Shown here one piece after another: positions 12,186 to 25,999 of a stretch of 64,000 nt of DNA. The notes below the pieces were generated by a model, which was given only the letters and a program-made list of their open reading frames with translations, was not told the origin of the DNA and ran no database searches. The position numbers and the translations under genes were made by a program. The DNA comes from Wenyingzhuangia fucanilytica (GTDB taxonomy: Bacteria; Bacteroidota; Bacteroidia; Flavobacteriales; Flavobacteriaceae), in NCBI RefSeq assembly GCF_001697185.1, contig NZ_CP014224.1, forward strand, positions 1,302,001 through 1,366,000. Reading direction: 5' to 3'. Each line of letters begins with the position of its first letter. Within the stretch, counting starts at the first letter, position 1.

Positions 12186-12641
12186 TTAAAATAATCCTAG
12201 TTTTACACTTGGGGTATTTACACGTACATTGGTATTAATACTTCTGCTTCTAGGGGATCTTTCGTAGTAATAATCGTTATATCTATAGTAGTAAAAAGAT
12301 GCATGACTGTAATAATGATCACTATGATGACAATGGTGATTACATTCATTATAATGTTCCGCATAAGCATCTTTCTTTCCTTGCATATAGGCTTTGTATG
12401 CTTTTTTATCTTTCTTTTTTAGATTTTTTTCATACGCTTTTTGATCTTTCCAAAACTGTTTTTCTTCTTCTTTGGTTTTGGCGCTAAATTCTTGCTCGTA
12501 TTTAGCATCTTCTTTTGCTCTTTTTTGATAATAAGATTCTTTATCTAAACTAGATTTGTTTTCGTTTTCTGTGTTTTGAGCTTGTAAGGTCGATGCTAAA
12601 CTTATGGTAATAATTAATAATGTTCTTTTTAAAAGTTTCAT
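12186..12641 (-). CDS. Small secreted His/Tyr-rich protein under the ECF promoter
   Basis: 151 residues, function unknown. A signal peptide (residues 1-21, ending LQAQ) is followed by a charged Lys/Glu helix-prone stretch (about 25-95), a histidine- and cysteine-containing patch (NECNHHCHHSDHYYSH) that could bind metal, and a tyrosine-rich patch. The C-terminus is short and beta-like. Its promoter region holds the motif ATAGGGTA-N15-GTCTTAA, identical to that before the FecR gene, so it is a likely member of the same sigma regulon. The metal idea is inference from composition only. Confidence 0.75.
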   Translation of the reverse strand: MKLLKRTLLIITISLASTLQAQNTENENKSSLDKESYYQKRAKEDAKYEQEFSAKTKEEEKQFWKDQKAYEKNLKKKDKKAYKAYMQGKKDAYAEHYNECNHHCHHSDHYYSHASFYYYRYNDYYYERSPRSRSINTNVRVNTPSVKLGLF

Positions 12642-12680: not shown

Positions 12681-12710
12681 TTAAGACACTTCAATTATTT
12701 TTTACCCTAT
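12681..12710 (-). promoter_or_regulatory. Predicted ECF promoter, site A
   Basis: Minus strand: ATAGGGTA (12710-12703), 15-base spacer, GTCTTAA (12687-12681), 40 bases before the ATG at 12641. Same elements and same spacing as sites B and C. Confidence 0.7.
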
Positions 12711-12721
12711 GATTTTTCACA

Positions 12722-13492
12722 TTATTTTCCTCCATTGGCTTGTAAATCGGCGATGCATTGAGCATCTAGCGTAGGAGCTGAATTACTACCAAATAAATTA
12801 GATATTCCATCACCTGTTTCTGCAGACCAATACATTAAACAACTCTCCACGTTACAATGTTTAGCATGTTCTGTGTCTTCATGTTGGCTTTGTAAGCTTG
12901 CCCCTAAATTGGTTAAACCTAATATATGACCAAATTCATGAGTAATAACTGTGGTTTCTAAAACATCTCTACTCGGTTCAAAAGCACTATTGCTTAAGTT
13001 TTGAATGTTTTTTTGAAATATAACAAAGGAAGTATTTCGGTAAGCTGTTCCTAATACAGTACCTGTATCGGTGTTTTTATCAGATTCTCCATCTGTAAAA
13101 TATGCCCATACAGCAATTTCTTTTTCTGTATTGTAATGGGTTCTGTTGTTTTCTTCAATAGTAATGATGTCATTAATAGTATAGCGATTTTTTCCAGGAC
13201 TTGGAATCATTTTTTCTTCAACTATAATTCCTTCTGGTTTATAGGTGCGCTTTTCTAAAAATGATACAAAATTGTTGATCGCATTTTGTGTAGGTTTATA
13301 CCCATCAACATAAACTAATTCTACAATCATCTTTTTGTACTTGTCATCCGAAAGTAAATCATTAGAAGAGCTCCCAGTTGATTTTTGATTTAAAGTACGA
13401 TTGATTCCATTGCTAACCTCTGATTCATTTTCTTTAGTACAAGAAAATAGGAGTGAAATCAATAAAAAGGAAATGAGGTAAAAAGTTTTCAT
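12722..13492 (-). CDS. Surface lipoprotein zinc metalloprotease
   Basis: 256 residues. The start is ATG 13492 (MKTFYLISF); an upstream in-frame codon at 13525 is less likely. The signal peptide ends in a lipobox, LLFSC, so it is lipid-anchored. The active site is HEFGHILGLTNLG (HExxHxxG), followed by a downstream segment HEDTEHAKHC and a CLMYW Met-turn-like motif, as in the Bacteroidota membrane metalloproteases related to metzincins. The position where classic metzincins have the third His/Asp is Asn, so the third ligand may be one of the downstream His or Asp residues. It follows the 350-residue lipoprotein gene and is probably read from site B through a weak stem-loop. Confidence 0.85.
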   Translation of the reverse strand: MKTFYLISFLLISLLFSCTKENESEVSNGINRTLNQKSTGSSSNDLLSDDKYKKMIVELVYVDGYKPTQNAINNFVSFLEKRTYKPEGIIVEEKMIPSPGKNRYTINDIITIEENNRTHYNTEKEIAVWAYFTDGESDKNTDTGTVLGTAYRNTSFVIFQKNIQNLSNSAFEPSRDVLETTVITHEFGHILGLTNLGASLQSQHEDTEHAKHCNVESCLMYWSAETGDGISNLFGSNSAPTLDAQCIADLQANGGK

Positions 13493-13514
13493 CAGGTATC
13501 TTTTATAGTTTATA

Positions 13515-13543
13515 AAAACAGCCACTTAAAAAGCAGCTGTTTT
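13515..13543 (-). terminator. Stem-loop between lipoprotein and metalloprotease genes
   Basis: AAAACAGC / GCTGTTTT with a 13-base loop and a TA-rich tail on the minus strand. It could reduce read-through and set the ratio between the two gene products. Confidence 0.5.
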
Positions 13544-13572
13544 ATATGTACGTAACCTTTATTAATTAGGTT

Positions 13573-14625
13573 TTAAATTTGATTTAATACCAATGCGGTT
13601 GAAGTGTTGGTAGTACTTTGTAAAGTTATACTACTGCTAGAGTAGTTGGTTACTGTCCAAGTATCATTTAACAATTCAAAATTAGCTTCGCTAGAAAATT
13701 CTAAAGTTAAAAATACTTCCATTTCAGAAGTTACAGAAAATGTACCTTCTGCTTTTTCAGCCAATGCATTAGCGGTGTTTGTAGCAGAACAAGTTAAATC
13801 GTTTGCAAAGTCAATAGTATAATTTGCATAAGTGTTAGCGGTATCTACTCCTCCGTTTATATATGATTGTACTCTAAAAGTACCTTCTACTAAAATATTT
13901 TCTAAAGTTTCTGCATCTTCTTGAGCATCATCCATAGTATCTTCATCACCTAAACAATCAGAAATGTGAGATTTAAATTCAGCATCGCTAGAAATGTTTA
14001 CTTCAGTATCATTACTTAATGTTGCTGAGATTGGATATTTGATAGAGAATTTTTCATCTTCATTAAAATTACTCATATAAGTATATAGCTCTTGATTAGA
14101 CTCTATAACTGTAGTGCTAGTTTGTTCTAAGCTAATATTATAAGTTAAAATACTTATTGGGTAATTCATTTTTAAACAATTAATGGCATTTTCTTTTTCT
14201 GCCTCCGCCTCTTCACAAGTGTCTTTAATAGCATTGTATTCAGCTTGATTTTCTACTTGTACTTCTGTGTAGTTACTTAGTTTTACACTAATAGGGAACT
14301 GAAAAGTAATGGTATCTTCGTCATTAATCACTTCGCCTAAAATATTTAATACTAATTGATAATCGTTTTTGTTAGTTAATATTATTTTTTGATTGTTTAC
14401 CCAAACAGTTACAGGAAATAAAACAGAAGAGCAAGAAGTTCCATCTAAAAAGTCATCAAAACTACCATCGTACATTGCAGTACGTTGTAAGTTTTTTGCT
14501 GTTTCTGAATTTACTGAGTTTGTATTTGGGTTTTGTCCGTTTTCCTCATCAATTTCTTTTTGACAAGAAATAAATCCTAAGAAGGAAACAAACATAAGAG
14601 CTGTAATTAATTTTAAAGTTTTCAT
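13573..14625 (-). CDS. Surface lipoprotein with internal repeats
   Basis: 350 residues, unknown function. The signal peptide ends in a lipobox (GFISCQKE). From about residue 70 four diverged repeats can be seen, each beginning FPVTV, FPISV, YPISI or YPISA and ending in a short acidic or polar helix with N-A-E-Y/F; three carry a nearby cysteine. The last 90 residues form a separate beta domain (about 255-350). Its promoter region carries ECF site B. The neighbouring metalloprotease and TonB receptor suggest a surface complex, possibly as substrate, partner or uptake component (inference). Confidence 0.8.
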   Translation of the reverse strand: MKTLKLITALMFVSFLGFISCQKEIDEENGQNPNTNSVNSETAKNLQRTAMYDGSFDDFLDGTSCSSVLFPVTVWVNNQKIILTNKNDYQLVLNILGEVINDEDTITFQFPISVKLSNYTEVQVENQAEYNAIKDTCEEAEAEKENAINCLKMNYPISILTYNISLEQTSTTVIESNQELYTYMSNFNEDEKFSIKYPISATLSNDTEVNISSDAEFKSHISDCLGDEDTMDDAQEDAETLENILVEGTFRVQSYINGGVDTANTYANYTIDFANDLTCSATNTANALAEKAEGTFSVTSEMEVFLTLEFSSEANFELLNDTWTVTNYSSSSITLQSTTNTSTALVLNQI

Positions 14626-14677
14626 TGATACTTATTTTTAGGTTAAACATAAAAGCGATTTTTTCGCCTTTCTGTAT

Positions 14678-14707
14678 TTAAGACTCTTAAGCTTAAATTT
14701 ACCCTAT
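14678..14707 (-). promoter_or_regulatory. Predicted ECF promoter, site B
   Basis: Minus strand: ATAGGGTA (14707-14700), 15-base spacer, GTCTTAA (14684-14678), 52 bases before the lipoprotein ATG. Confidence 0.7.
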
Positions 14708-14755
14708 AGTTTTTTTAATTTTTTTAAATTAAAAAGTTAAATACTTAAAATACTG

Positions 14756-14789
14756 TTGTTTATAAGTATGTTTATAATTCCTACTTTTG
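14756..14789 (+). promoter_or_regulatory. Housekeeping promoter of the ECF sigma gene
   Basis: TTG at 14756-14758 and TACTTTTG at 14782-14789 with a 23-base gap. The sigma gene thus appears to be made from the main sigma factor, not from its own motif. Confidence 0.5.
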
Positions 14790-14816
14790 TACAAATCTAC
14801 ATTATAAAGAGAATTT

Positions 14817-15338
14817 ATGAATAAACCCAAGCATAAACTTTGCGAAGAATCTTATTTTAATAGCTTTTATATAAAACATATTCAGGCCGCTAGTAATTTT
14901 GCTTTTTATAAATCTGGAAATCATGCTGCCTCTTTAGACTTGGTACAAGATGCTTTTGCTAAAATATGGGAAAATTGTGCTAAGATTGATTTTGAAAAAG
15001 CAAAGACCTATTTGTTTACAACGGTAAATAATTTATTCTTAAATACGATTAGACATCAAAAAGTTGTGATGTCTTATGCAAAGGAATCTCCCTATATAGA
15101 CAAAACGAATTTAAATCCAGAATATATTTTGGAAGAAGAGGAGTTTAAACAAAAATTATTGAACACCATTGCTGATTTAAGCGAAGAACAAAGAGAAGTT
15201 TTTTTGTTAAATAGAATAGAGGGAAAAAAATATAGAGAAATAGCAGAGCTGTTAGGAATATCTCAAAAAACGGTAGAGAAAAGAATGTCTTTAGCCTTAA
15301 AATTTCTACGCAGTAAAATGAATAAAGTAAATATTTAG
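14817..15338 (+). CDS. ECF RNA polymerase sigma factor (FecI-like)
   Basis: 173 residues. Sigma region 2 covers about residues 20-85 (DLVQDAFAKIWEN, then the FTTVNNLFLNTIRH helix). Region 4 covers about 115-168 (LSEEQREVFLLNRIEG, KYREIAELLGISQKTVEKR). The length is normal. It is followed by an anti-sigma FecR and a TonB receptor, the standard cell-surface signalling arrangement: ligand at the receptor leads FecR to free the sigma factor. It probably recognises the ATAGGGTA-N15-GTCTTAA motif seen at three places around it, including the one between this gene and fecR. Confidence 0.93.
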   Translation: MNKPKHKLCEESYFNSFYIKHIQAASNFAFYKSGNHAASLDLVQDAFAKIWENCAKIDFEKAKTYLFTTVNNLFLNTIRHQKVVMSYAKESPYIDKTNLNPEYILEEEEFKQKLLNTIADLSEEQREVFLLNRIEGKKYREIAELLGISQKTVEKRMSLALKFLRSKMNKVNI

Positions 15339-15346
15339 ACATTAGT

Positions 15347-15376
15347 ATAGGGTAATATATAAAATAGGTGTCTTAA
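15347..15376 (+). promoter_or_regulatory. Predicted ECF promoter, site C
   Basis: ATAGGGTA (15347-15354), 15-base spacer, GTCTTAA (15370-15376), 18 bases before the FecR ATG. It drives the anti-sigma/receptor pair separately from the sigma gene. Confidence 0.75.
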
Positions 15377-15394: not shown

Positions 15395-16309
15395 ATGAAT
15401 AAAGAAAACGACATATTAAAATGGTTTGATGGTGAGATTTCTACAGAAATGATACAGCAAAAGTATCCTGATGAAGATTTTTCAACTCTTAAAAAAGCAA
15501 GTTTCTATACAAAGCAAATAGAAGTGCCTAAAGTAGATGCAGAAAAAGCTTTGGAGGAATTTAAAACTAGAACTTTTCATAAAAAAGAAGTTAAAGTGGT
15601 TTCGTTTAACGCACAGTTCTTCTTAAAAATAGCGGCTATTTTAGTAGTCTTGTTTGGTGCATCGTATTTTTTCTTTTTTAACAATACGGCATCTTATAAT
15701 ACAACAATAGCCCAAACAGAAACGTTCTTTTTGCCAGATAACTCAGAGGTAGTGTTAAATGCGCAATCTGAATTAAATTACAATAAAAAAGAATGGCAAA
15801 ATAACAGAACACTTGAGCTTGATGGAGAAGCCTTTTTTAAAGTCACCAAAGGAAATACATTTACAGTGTTTACTGATGCGGGAAGCATTCAGGTTTTGGG
15901 AACACAATTTAATGTTAAAGAACGTGAACGTTATTTTGAGGTGCAATGTTACGAAGGTTCTGTAAGTGTAACTTATCAGGATAAAAAAACAATTTTATCT
16001 CCTGGTAAATCTTTTAGAGTGATAGATGGAAAAGTAATAGATACAAAAGATTTTAATGCCGAAAATCCTTCGTGGTTGGCTAAAGAAACTACTTTTGATC
16101 ACGTTCCTTTATGGCAAGTAATAAACGAATTAGAAATACAATACAACATAAAAATAGAAGCTAAAAACGTGGATGTAACTAAAATATTCTCAGGAAGTTT
16201 TACACATACTAACCAAAATATAGCTTTACAATCGGTAACCATACCGCTTAAATTAAGTTATAAAATACAAGGAAATAAAGTTGAGTTTTATAACTATGAA
16301 ACAAAGTAA
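15395..16309 (+). CDS. FecR-type anti-sigma factor
   Basis: 304 residues from ATG 15395. A short cytoplasmic N-terminus (about 75 residues) would hold the sigma factor. One membrane helix at about 78-97 (LKIAAILVVLFGASYFFFF) follows. The periplasmic part has the FecR beta domain (about 105-205, with LPDNSEVVLNAQS, LDGEAFFKV, VLGTQFNV) and a C-terminal DUF4974-like secretin-type domain (about 225-300). It receives the signal from the STN domain of the receptor encoded next. Its end overlaps the receptor start by 14 bases. Confidence 0.93.
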   Translation: MNKENDILKWFDGEISTEMIQQKYPDEDFSTLKKASFYTKQIEVPKVDAEKALEEFKTRTFHKKEVKVVSFNAQFFLKIAAILVVLFGASYFFFFNNTASYNTTIAQTETFFLPDNSEVVLNAQSELNYNKKEWQNNRTLELDGEAFFKVTKGNTFTVFTDAGSIQVLGTQFNVKERERYFEVQCYEGSVSVTYQDKKTILSPGKSFRVIDGKVIDTKDFNAENPSWLAKETTFDHVPLWQVINELEIQYNIKIEAKNVDVTKIFSGSFTHTNQNIALQSVTIPLKLSYKIQGNKVEFYNYETK

Positions 16310-18824
16310 ACTATTTTTAATTCTATGTATTACTTATGGTTGTTTTTCTTTTGCAATTTCAATGCAAGAAAGAATACAGCTCATCTATCTACTCCCTAAT
16401 TTAGAGGCTAAGTTTGATGTTAAGTTTTCTTATGCTGTAGAAGATGTAGATGGGGTTTGGGTTACACAACCAAATAAAAATTTTACTTTAAACCAAGTCA
16501 TAGATTTTTTAAATAAGACTACCGTATTAAACTTTAAGTTTTTAACAGATCGTTATATTACGGTATCTACTTTGCAAAAAAAGGTAAGCATTTGTGGGGT
16601 TTTAACAAATCAAAATAAAGCACCTTTGTTGGGTGCTACCCTAATGCTTTCTAGGGCTAATAAGGGAGTGGTAACCAATGTAAATGGGGAGTTTTTAATA
16701 GAAAACGTTGATATAAATGAAGATGTAAACATTTCTTATATAGGATATCAAACCTTAAGTTTAAAAGCAAAAGATTTAAGAAGTTGTCAAGAAATTGTGT
16801 TGATAGAGCAGGCAGAAATGTTAAATCCAATACTAATTTCTAAATTTTTAACCACCGGTTTGCAAAAACGAGTTGATGGTAGTACTGTTTTAAATACAGA
16901 AAAATTTGGGATATTACCAGGTCTTACAGAACCTGATATTTTACAATCTATTCAAGCCTTACCAGGGGTAGAAAGTGTTAATGAAAGTATTGCCAATATC
17001 AATGTAAGAGGTGGTAGTAACGATCAAAATTTAATTCTTTGGGATGGTATTAAAATGTATCATGCAGGACATTTTTTTGGATTGATTTCTGCTTATAACC
17101 CTAATTTAACCCAAAGTGTTGTGGTAACTAAAAACGGAACTTCTAGCGAGTTTAGTGATGGGGTTTCTAGTATCATTAACATGTTTACAAAAAATGAAAT
17201 TGGCAAAGAAATTAATGGGGGATTGGGAGTAAACCTGTTAAATACAGATGTTTTTTTAGAAATTCCCATCAACAAAAAATTGGCTGTCCACGTTTCTGGA
17301 AGAAGATCTTTTACTGATGTGTTTACCTCACCAACTTATGATACTTATTTTAAAAGAAGTTTTCAAAATAGCGAATTAACCAGTTCTGATAATATTAGTG
17401 AAAGTAATAAATCTTCAGACTTTTACTTTTATGATTATACTGCCAAACTGTTGTATGATGTTAATCAAAACCATAAAATACGAGCTAATATTATTGGAAT
17501 TTATAATCACCTTGATTATACAGAAAGTGATACCAACACGCAGAATGAAACGATTTCTAGAACCAATAATTTACAACAACAAAATTTGGGAGCAGGGTTT
17601 CAGTGGAATGCCATTTGGACAAATAAATTCAAAACGGATATTGTTGCTTTTTATTCTAAATACAATATTGATGCAATAGATTATAAAATTGAATCTGATC
17701 AAAAATTAACCCAAGCCAATGAGGTGATTGAAACAGGTTTAAAGTTGAAAACAACATATAAAATTCATAAAAATGTTTCACTTTTAAATGGATATCAATT
17801 TAGCGAAACAGGAATTTTAAATCAAACTACAGTAAATGTTCCCTCTTATTCTAAAACTAAAAAAGATGTTTTACTAAACCACGCATTGTTTAGTGAAATT
17901 GAATTTAACAATGGAAGTACCTATGCTAGACTTGGATTTAGAGCAAATTACTTTCAGAAGTTTAACAAGTTTATTTTAGAACCTAGATTTAATTTTAGAC
18001 AAACATTAAACAAGCAATTTGCTGTAAAAATTCAAGGAGAGTTTAAAAATCAATCTGCTACTCAGGTAATCGACTTTCAAGACAATTTTTTAGGGGTAGA
18101 AAAAAGACGTTGGATTTTAGCCAACAATCAAAATATTCCAATTTCTAAAAGTAAACAAGGTTCTTTGGGTGTAGAGTTTCATCAACATAATTGGGTGTTA
18201 AGCACCGATGGTTTTTACAAGTTTGTTAATGGTATTACAGCTTCTAATCAAGGGTTTTACAATAGTTTTCAAAACCTAAGAGCTACAGGGAATTATCAGG
18301 TAAAAGGAATTGAGTTTTTAGCCAATAAAACAAGTAATAAATACAGTACTTGGTTTAGTTATACTTATAGTGTAAATCAATATGAATTTAAAAGTTTTAC
18401 TCCTTCTGTTTTTCCTAATAATGTAGATATAAAACATTCTGTTTCTTTGGCTTTTAATTATAATTTATTAGAAAATTTAGAAATGTCTTTAGGTGGGGTT
18501 TTAAGATCGGGGCAACCGTATACAAAACCTATTGAGGGCAAAGAAACTATTCAGAATGGAAATAATACTGTTGTAAATTACGATGTGCCTAATGATGAAA
18601 ATTTGCCAAATTTCATGAGGCTAGATGCTTCTATAAAATATCATTTTACTTGGTTTAATACCATTAAAAATTCTTTAACGTTAGGAGTGATAAATCTAAC
18701 TAACAGAGAAAATATCATCAATAGATATTATGAAGTAGATACTAATAATACCGATAAAACCATTGAGGTAAATCAAAAATCTTTAGGGTTTATGCCTAAT
18801 ATTAGTTTTAGGATTAAATTTTAA
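16296..18824 (+). CDS. TonB-dependent receptor with STN signalling domain
   Basis: 842 residues from ATG 16296. After the signal peptide come an STN domain (about residues 28-95), a carboxypeptidase-regulatory-like beta domain (about 100-175, VNGEFLIENV, SYIGYQTLSL), a plug domain (about 190-320, ALPGVESVNE, VRGGSNDQNLILWDG) and an outer-membrane barrel ending in SFRIKF with terminal Phe. The STN domain makes it a transducer that signals through FecR. The cargo is unknown; no SusD partner is next to it, which argues against a glycan system. Confidence 0.92.
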   Translation: MKQSKLFLILCITYGCFSFAISMQERIQLIYLLPNLEAKFDVKFSYAVEDVDGVWVTQPNKNFTLNQVIDFLNKTTVLNFKFLTDRYITVSTLQKKVSICGVLTNQNKAPLLGATLMLSRANKGVVTNVNGEFLIENVDINEDVNISYIGYQTLSLKAKDLRSCQEIVLIEQAEMLNPILISKFLTTGLQKRVDGSTVLNTEKFGILPGLTEPDILQSIQALPGVESVNESIANINVRGGSNDQNLILWDGIKMYHAGHFFGLISAYNPNLTQSVVVTKNGTSSEFSDGVSSIINMFTKNEIGKEINGGLGVNLLNTDVFLEIPINKKLAVHVSGRRSFTDVFTSPTYDTYFKRSFQNSELTSSDNISESNKSSDFYFYDYTAKLLYDVNQNHKIRANIIGIYNHLDYTESDTNTQNETISRTNNLQQQNLGAGFQWNAIWTNKFKTDIVAFYSKYNIDAIDYKIESDQKLTQANEVIETGLKLKTTYKIHKNVSLLNGYQFSETGILNQTTVNVPSYSKTKKDVLLNHALFSEIEFNNGSTYARLGFRANYFQKFNKFILEPRFNFRQTLNKQFAVKIQGEFKNQSATQVIDFQDNFLGVEKRRWILANNQNIPISKSKQGSLGVEFHQHNWVLSTDGFYKFVNGITASNQGFYNSFQNLRATGNYQVKGIEFLANKTSNKYSTWFSYTYSVNQYEFKSFTPSVFPNNVDIKHSVSLAFNYNLLENLEMSLGGVLRSGQPYTKPIEGKETIQNGNNTVVNYDVPNDENLPNFMRLDASIKYHFTWFNTIKNSLTLGVINLTNRENIINRYYEVDTNNTDKTIEVNQKSLGFMPNISFRIKF

Positions 18825-24668: not shown

Positions 24669-24880
24669 AAAAAGAGGAAGTAGGTGATTTTAAGGCTGAC
24701 TAAAATAATTGTTTCGTCCTTGTTTTGACCTGTTTTTTTAGAAGAAAAAAATAAATTTATAAACAATCTAAGCTCGTGTGGTGATAATTTTTTTGAATCT
24801 TCTATTTTTAAGGGTAGGGTATTTCTATAATTTCCTGTTTTATAAATAAATACTGTTTTAAAAAATAAGATAAATTAAAG

Positions 24881-25999
24881 ATGAATAAAAAACATTTGAT
24901 TGTTGGGGCAGTTGTCCTAAGCGTTTTAGCAAGTTGTCATAGTCATAAAAAGAGCAATACTCATAGTCATGATGGACACACCCATGGAGCTGATGAAGCT
25001 CATCAACACGATTATTTTGGCGATTATGATTTAGAAGATGAAAGTTTTGGAACCAAAACCAAAGTAACAATTACCAATAACAAACGTGTTATGGTTACTA
25101 ATTCTTTACCAGATCACGAAACTGGTGAGTTTCCAAGAAAAGGAAATCCAAACCGTATTTCTGCGCAAAATAAAACTTATGAATTCCCTTTACAACCCAA
25201 GTGGATTGGAGAGCCACAATGGGTAAGAGAACCAGGGGTAGCTATAAATGGTGTAAAGTTTGAGCCTGGAACTGCCGAAGTTGTGGTTTGTGAAACAGGA
25301 GAAAATTATAAAGTAGAAGCTTTTCAGAATTTAATTGATTTAGGTCTTGATTTTAACAATGCTCACGTGCAGCCTACAGGTGCGTATCATTATCACGGTA
25401 GTCCAACTTCTATGATAAAAAATAATGATACAGGCGAGGATTTAATCCATATAGGTTTTGCTCACGATGGATATCCTATTTACTATTCTAAAAGCAAAAC
25501 TTACAAGTCAAGTTACAAGTTGGTTGATGGAAATAGAGAAGGAGAAGATTGTACTTACTCTAATCCAAAGAAAACTATTGATGTTCCAGTTGTAGATCAT
25601 CACGATGGAACTTATACTTCGGATTTTGAATATGTTGAAGGAGCAGGTGATTTAGATGAGTGTAACGGAATTACTATTGATGGAAAATACATGTATTTGG
25701 TTACAGATGAATTTCCTTATGTAAGTCGTTGTTTGATGGGAGAAGTAGCGCAAGAAGAACGCAGAAGACCAAGAGATGGAAATTCACAAAGAGGACGTAG
25801 AGAAGGAGGAGAGCGACCTAACTTTACTCAGATTTTACAGCATATGGATGCTAATAAAGATGGAAAATTATCTAAAGATGAAGTAAAAGGACCTTTAAAA
25901 GATGGTTTTTCTAAGTTAGATACAGATGAAGATGGATTTATTTCGGAACAAGAATTTGATAATGCTCCAAGACCTACAAACGGATCGCAAAGGAGATAA
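24881..25999 (+). CDS. YHYH-domain lipoprotein with two EF-hands
   Basis: 372 residues. The signal peptide ends in the lipobox LASC, followed by a histidine-rich linker (residues 21-45) that may bind metal. The central YHYH domain (about 90-285) contains AYHYHGSP and DLDECNG. A basic RRPRDG linker leads to two EF-hands near the C-terminus: DANKDGKLSKDE and DTDEDGFISEQE, both with full calcium-ligand patterns. It is probably a secreted or surface metal-binding protein; the reaction is unknown. It is monocistronic with a terminator behind it. Confidence 0.85.
   Translation: MNKKHLIVGAVVLSVLASCHSHKKSNTHSHDGHTHGADEAHQHDYFGDYDLEDESFGTKTKVTITNNKRVMVTNSLPDHETGEFPRKGNPNRISAQNKTYEFPLQPKWIGEPQWVREPGVAINGVKFEPGTAEVVVCETGENYKVEAFQNLIDLGLDFNNAHVQPTGAYHYHGSPTSMIKNNDTGEDLIHIGFAHDGYPIYYSKSKTYKSSYKLVDGNREGEDCTYSNPKKTIDVPVVDHHDGTYTSDFEYVEGAGDLDECNGITIDGKYMYLVTDEFPYVSRCLMGEVAQEERRRPRDGNSQRGRREGGERPNFTQILQHMDANKDGKLSKDEVKGPLKDGFSKLDTDEDGFISEQEFDNAPRPTNGSQRR

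Follow-up and report, generated by a model that had tools for sequence, protein, structure and literature searches.

Three predicted ECF promoters of a probable small regulon at a probable FecI/FecR-type surface signalling locus of Wenyingzhuangia fucanilytica, with a sister system that differs mainly at one −10 base

In FecI/FecR/FecA signalling, an ECF sigma factor, a FecR regulator with a FecR_C domain, and a TonB-dependent receptor are encoded side by side, and the receptor operon is under an ECF-type promoter. The same regulator pair and signalling logic are found in the ECF sigma/FecR glycan loci of Bacteroides, which carry SusC/SusD (PMC3878776). Within the family to which Wenyingzhuangia belongs, the SM6 class of ECF-type promoters of Flavobacterium psychrophilum has been mapped by transcript starts; its promoters contain a CGT box and drive T9SS genes (PMC9723704). 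In the Dma/Das (ECF21) system of Bacteroides, an ECF sigma factor is joined to a membrane anti-sigma factor that senses the envelope, Dma being one protein that reaches the outer membrane (PMC13088901).

The locus described here lies in a 64,000-nucleotide stretch of the W. fucanilytica genome (hereafter the window) and shares with FecI/FecR/FecA all of the features named above, but its promoter sits between the sigma gene and fecR, and the regulon would also take in a divergently transcribed operon for the lipoprotein and metalloprotease as well as the gene for a His/Tyr-rich secreted protein. It has the regulator pair of the Bacteroides glycan loci without a SusD partner or glycan enzymes; a SusC/SusD uptake locus was rejected as a description, as the receptor scores only 56 bits against the SusC/RagA cut-off of 368 and no SusD family match or SusD-like lipoprotein was found in the locus. 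Whereas Dma is a single protein, FecR and the receptor are here separate proteins, and the predicted promoters belong to a GTC class that differs from SM6 and is not reported in PMC9723704. The His/Tyr-rich, metalloprotease, and lipoprotein genes, all on the minus strand, are followed by the divergent sigma, FecR, and TonB-dependent receptor genes on the plus strand:

12186–12641, minus strand: His/Tyr-rich secreted protein, 151 aa, with an ECNHHCHHSDxYY...SFYYY core (alignment of 21 homologues)
12681–12710, minus strand: predicted ECF promoter of the His/Tyr-rich secreted protein gene (exact match, N15)
12722–13492, minus strand: predicted lipoprotein, 256 aa, with HEFGHILGLTNLG and CLMYW motifs, a putative metzincin-like zinc protease
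13573–14625, minus strand: predicted lipoprotein, 350 aa, with cysteine-bounded repeats and a C-terminal beta-rich domain
14678–14707, minus strand: predicted ECF promoter of the lipoprotein-metalloprotease operon (exact match, N15)
14782–14789, plus strand: sigma-A type −7 box TACTTTTG of the sigma gene, Bacteroidota form (TAnnTTTG pattern)
14817–15338, plus strand: ECF sigma factor, 173 aa (TIGR02985, 128.8 bits, cut-off 126.4; Pfam sigma70 regions 2 and 4)
15347–15376, plus strand: predicted ECF promoter of the fecR-receptor operon (ATAGGGTA-N15-GTCTTAA, exact)
15395–16309, plus strand: FecR-type anti-sigma factor/regulator, 304 aa (PF04773, 65.7 bits, cut-off 24; PF16344, 30.4 bits, cut-off 24.4)
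16296–18824, plus strand: TonB-dependent receptor, 842 aa, with CarboxypepD-like and plug domains (PF13715 and PF07715, above cut-off)

By its TIGR02985 score, the sigma factor belongs to the FecI-like Bacteroidota group. The FecR regulator gene adjoins the sigma gene, and the receptor gene is in the fecR operon, overlapping fecR by 14 nt. Residues 1–101 of the receptor gave a sub-threshold FecR_C match (16.1 bits, cut-off 24.4) and a family profile search returned no STN domain match; the receptor N-terminus is probably a signalling domain. The 350-aa lipoprotein matched no known family, and its structure prediction from 7 sequences was too poor for a fold search (mean pLDDT 43.8). Of 299 family genomes, 200 have homologues of this lipoprotein; in 25 genomes these are close orthologues (E below 1e-100; 48–63% identity outside the window genome), and many others are more distant. 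In the putative metalloprotease, the residues of the HEFGH..GL..LG and CLMY motifs are largely invariant among 7 sequences; family matches were all below their cut-offs, a search of PDB sequences with its profile gave nothing credible, and its model (mean pLDDT 55.9) gave weak metzincin-like fold matches, none with E below 0.001. Archaemetzincin was rejected as an identification (family model 25.2 bits against 145; a weak fold match, E 0.02, from a low-confidence model). The His/Tyr-rich protein had no real Pfam or NCBIfam match, and its CxHHCHH-type core may bind metal.

The initial annotation had described three identical two-part elements with a fixed 15-base spacer, and this was borne out: both elements and the N15 spacing are identical at 12681–12710, 14678–14707, and 15347–15376, the last ending 18 nt before the fecR ATG (15395), and the 64-kb window holds no fourth exact copy. 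Genome-wide counts were obtained by pattern searches. In the whole genome (one contig, 3,427,057 bp) ATAGGGTA-N15-GTCTTAA occurs in 3 copies, all at the locus, and the reversed pattern, used as a control, in none; the expectation by chance, calculated from base composition (GC about 0.30–0.34), is roughly 0.01–0.02 copies per genome. A scan of the same genome allowing one mismatch gave 12 sites against 17 in the control, which is background, and the informative matches are thus the near-exact ones only.

The sites recur well beyond this genome. A congener, G001, which matches W. aestuarii (L034), has the same three sites with diverged spacers. Taking the best fixed-N15 site of at least 12/14 letters, an equivalent site precedes fecR in 30/30 related loci (8–23 nt upstream, mostly 18–21). 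The count is likewise 30/30 for the lipoprotein gene and 19/19 for the His/Tyr-rich gene, a total of 79/79 gene starts, but 0/30 for each of the metalloprotease, sigma, and receptor genes; the 30 loci share ancestry and include some near-duplicates, and so do not amount to 30 independent cases. The scores observed at the three positive positions were never reached by shuffled upstream sequences. Aligning 80 sites gave the consensus GTAGGGTAAA-N13-GTCTTA, with 1.85 bits of information per motif column against 0.57 in the spacer. The supposition that short repeats or mere chance account for the sites, and that they have no regulatory role, for which only their small number speaks, is scarcely credible when the spacers vary around fixed elements and the same three positions are kept in about 25 genera.

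Across the 299 family genomes, TAGGGTAAA-N13-GTCTTA yielded 64 sites against 1 for its reversed control, and the site is present in 24 of the 25 genomes with an orthologous lipoprotein as opposed to 3 of the 274 others. The same gene order is found in about 25 genera, and in two genera in which the His/Tyr gene has been relocated far from the locus, the site is retained 45–48 nt upstream of it. Since the sites are conserved in about 25 genera, track the orthologous system, and follow the moved His/Tyr gene, the proposal that the adjacent ECF sigma factor governs them as a single small regulon is supported; in the window genome it would comprise three promoters and five genes. The metalloprotease had also been linked to the motif: it has no site of its own, but would belong to the regulon because it is the second gene behind the lipoprotein gene, across an 80-nt gap and in the same order in relatives.

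The locus varies among relatives. Most have an extra gene after the metalloprotease, encoding a small outer-membrane beta-barrel protein (PF13568, about 194 aa), which is missing from the window locus and which we read as lost there. In two diverged genus relatives (G005 and G006) the genes are arranged differently and fecR lacks a clear site upstream. In seven loci (L037, L038, L039, L044, L053, L055, and L079), two GTC-type sites in the same direction lie upstream of the lipoprotein gene, about 162–168 bp apart. Off the locus, genomes G169 and G030 (L093 and L095), from two genera, each have a GTC-type site 36–37 nt upstream of a gene for a small membrane protein (144 and 149 aa); the two proteins are homologous to each other (E 7.7e-21) and have no homologue in the window genome. 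Extra GTC-type sites in five genomes (G077, G116, G121, G125, and G275) were dismissed as chance, being intragenic or lacking a plausible downstream gene.

A paralogous sigma factor, 49% identical, is encoded at 3.259 Mb of the same genome, next to a FecR, a receptor, and a divergently encoded repeat lipoprotein that belong to it. Its presumptive promoters, before fecR and the lipoprotein gene and in relatives as well, keep GTAGGGTA and N15, with GTT in place of GTC; in the aligned sets, 78 of 80 GTC-class sites have C as the third −10 base, and 23 of 23 GTT-class sites have T. One GTT-type site falls within the window:

24814–24842, plus strand: GTT-type promoter-like site GTAGGGTA-N15-GTTTTA, 38 nt before 24881
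24881–25999, plus strand: YHYH-domain, EF-hand lipoprotein, 372 aa (PF14240, 187 bits, and EF-hands)

With 3 mismatches to the GTC-type pattern (24814–24843), this site is the nearest partial match of note in the window. The orthologue of the YHYH lipoprotein gene in G001 keeps a site (L123), and the sister sigma factor probably acts on the gene at 24881. Searching the genus for the GTT class gave 24 sites against 2 in the control; such sites precede genes for YHYH lipoproteins, a sulfatase-family lipoprotein (in three species), and a CotH protein (L119, L120, L121–L125, and L127), which suggests that these genes form one surface regulon. In the wider family, many GTT-type sites stand before fecR or a repeat lipoprotein gene. 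Two loci mix the classes. Upstream of a 112-aa ORF in G005 (L073), two sites stand in tandem, one of GTT type and one GTC-like at 12/14 (ATAGGGAA-N15-GTCTTA, identified by eye), ahead of an operon with a second, diverged sigma gene, and a sigma cascade is possible. In G014, a sister-type locus with a GTT-class sigma factor (L097) has a 91-aa ORF carrying a GTC-type site; this genome also has a GTC-class sigma factor, which could possibly exert cross-control on the ORF.

The sister system bears on which factor would read the three sites. They might be driven by a different ECF sigma factor encoded in this genome, for example the paralogue at 3.259 Mb, given that the −35 element and spacing are common to both systems and that the genome has 8 detectable sigma homologues; we consider this unlikely, however, as the motif tracks the orthologous locus in the family-wide comparison above, the congeners G002–G004, which have neither the motif nor a close sigma orthologue, keep the sister sigma factor without any GTC-type site, and the promoters of the sister system carry GTT throughout. 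It is likewise quite improbable that the sites are operators of a transcription factor, activator or repressor, in place of sigma promoters. A long two-part conserved motif would suit an operator, but the motif has the form of an ECF promoter (a −35-like G-run, a fixed N15, and a GTC −10 like that of other ECF promoters), is neither a palindrome nor a direct repeat, is always oriented the same way toward each gene at a distance that suits a promoter, and changes its −10 together with the sigma paralogue. The locus, moreover, has no further conserved regulator gene. Control by the adjacent sigma factor stays our preferred reading.

When 29 sigma factors of the GTC type were aligned with 12 of the GTT type, few columns had disjoint residues between the classes, and two of these are in DNA-binding parts of region 2. 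Position 58 is Asp or Glu in the GTC type and Ile, Ala, Pro, Ser, or Thr in the GTT type; position 79, in region 2.4, is Arg or Lys in the former and Ala in the latter, and the diverged GTC-type factor of L082 retains Asp and Lys. From the alignment offset and the E. coli sigma E sequence, we take position 58 to fall in loop L3. Loop L3 comprises residues 63–72 of E. coli sigma E (PMC6372665). On the tree the C/T state needs one change, and the correlation between residue and base therefore derives from one event and not from independent repeats.

The sigma gene itself had been assigned a housekeeping promoter, and it does have a −7 box of that type at 14782–14789 and no ATAGGGTA-N15-GTCTTAA site upstream. 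Of 31 loci, 25 have TAnnTTTG no more than 130 nt upstream of the sigma gene's start, and in 11 of the 30 GTC-type loci (L038, L039, L042, L046–L048, L053–L055, L079, and L081) the −7 box overlaps the −35 of a divergent ECF-type element. This overlap suggests that the sigma gene may be repressed by its own holoenzyme, a possible built-in negative feedback. Together with the sister system, it leads to a broader proposal, to which we give an even chance: a duplicated signalling system may have split into two insulated regulons mainly through a single −10 substitution, GTC to GTT, while retaining the −35 and spacer and acquiring matching changes at sigma residues 58 and 79, the −7 box overlap adding negative feedback.

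Our main reading, held at a probability of roughly 85%, is that the locus encodes cell-surface signalling of the FecI/FecR type and controls a few nearby genes: fecR and the receptor gene, the lipoprotein and metalloprotease genes, and the His/Tyr-rich protein gene. The sites with their spacing, uniqueness, conservation, and gene order are read directly from the sequence; on this reading the three sites would be active promoters, the adjacent sigma factor their cognate, and ligand the driver of the switch. Against it stand the sub-threshold score of the receptor's signalling domain and the altered gene order, with no clear fecR site, in G005 and G006. The sigma-A promoter would maintain some ECF sigma factor in the cell, and FecR would hold or license it at the inner membrane. 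The TonB-dependent receptor would signal ligand binding to FecR through its N-terminal domain, and the active sigma factor would then transcribe from exactly the three GTAGGGTAAA-N13-GTCTTA promoters, with that of fecR and the receptor as the feedback arm. The products may well work together at the surface and in the periplasm to capture or process the ligand, perhaps a metal-bearing or protein-derived compound; this step is a guess, and a doubtful one. Of the two roles offered by the initial annotation, uptake is plausible from the TonB-dependent receptor, and uptake or processing of some sensed compound would be the reading that comes most naturally, although the protein features do not fix the ligand; surface repair found no evidence in its support.

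The same annotation had taken the system to be undescribed, which holds in part: the FecI/FecR/TonB-receptor logic is well known, whereas a search of the accessible part of the literature returned no report of the promoter class with its GTC motif, of the set of genes, or of sister systems divided by GTC and GTT.

ECF promoter prediction in Bacteroidota has been called hard and in need of start-site data (PMC3878776). Here, comparative genomics alone defined a promoter class so sharply that regulon members can be listed for each genome, even those at a distance from the sigma gene. It has been discussed that loop L3 may determine which −10 base is recognised (PMC6372665), and the sister pair would offer a natural test of this idea, with two sigma factors in one organism that share a −35 and spacer and differ in C versus T. 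The GTT regulon, for its part, would tie poorly understood surface proteins, namely the YHYH, CotH, and sulfatase-family lipoproteins, to one signalling system.
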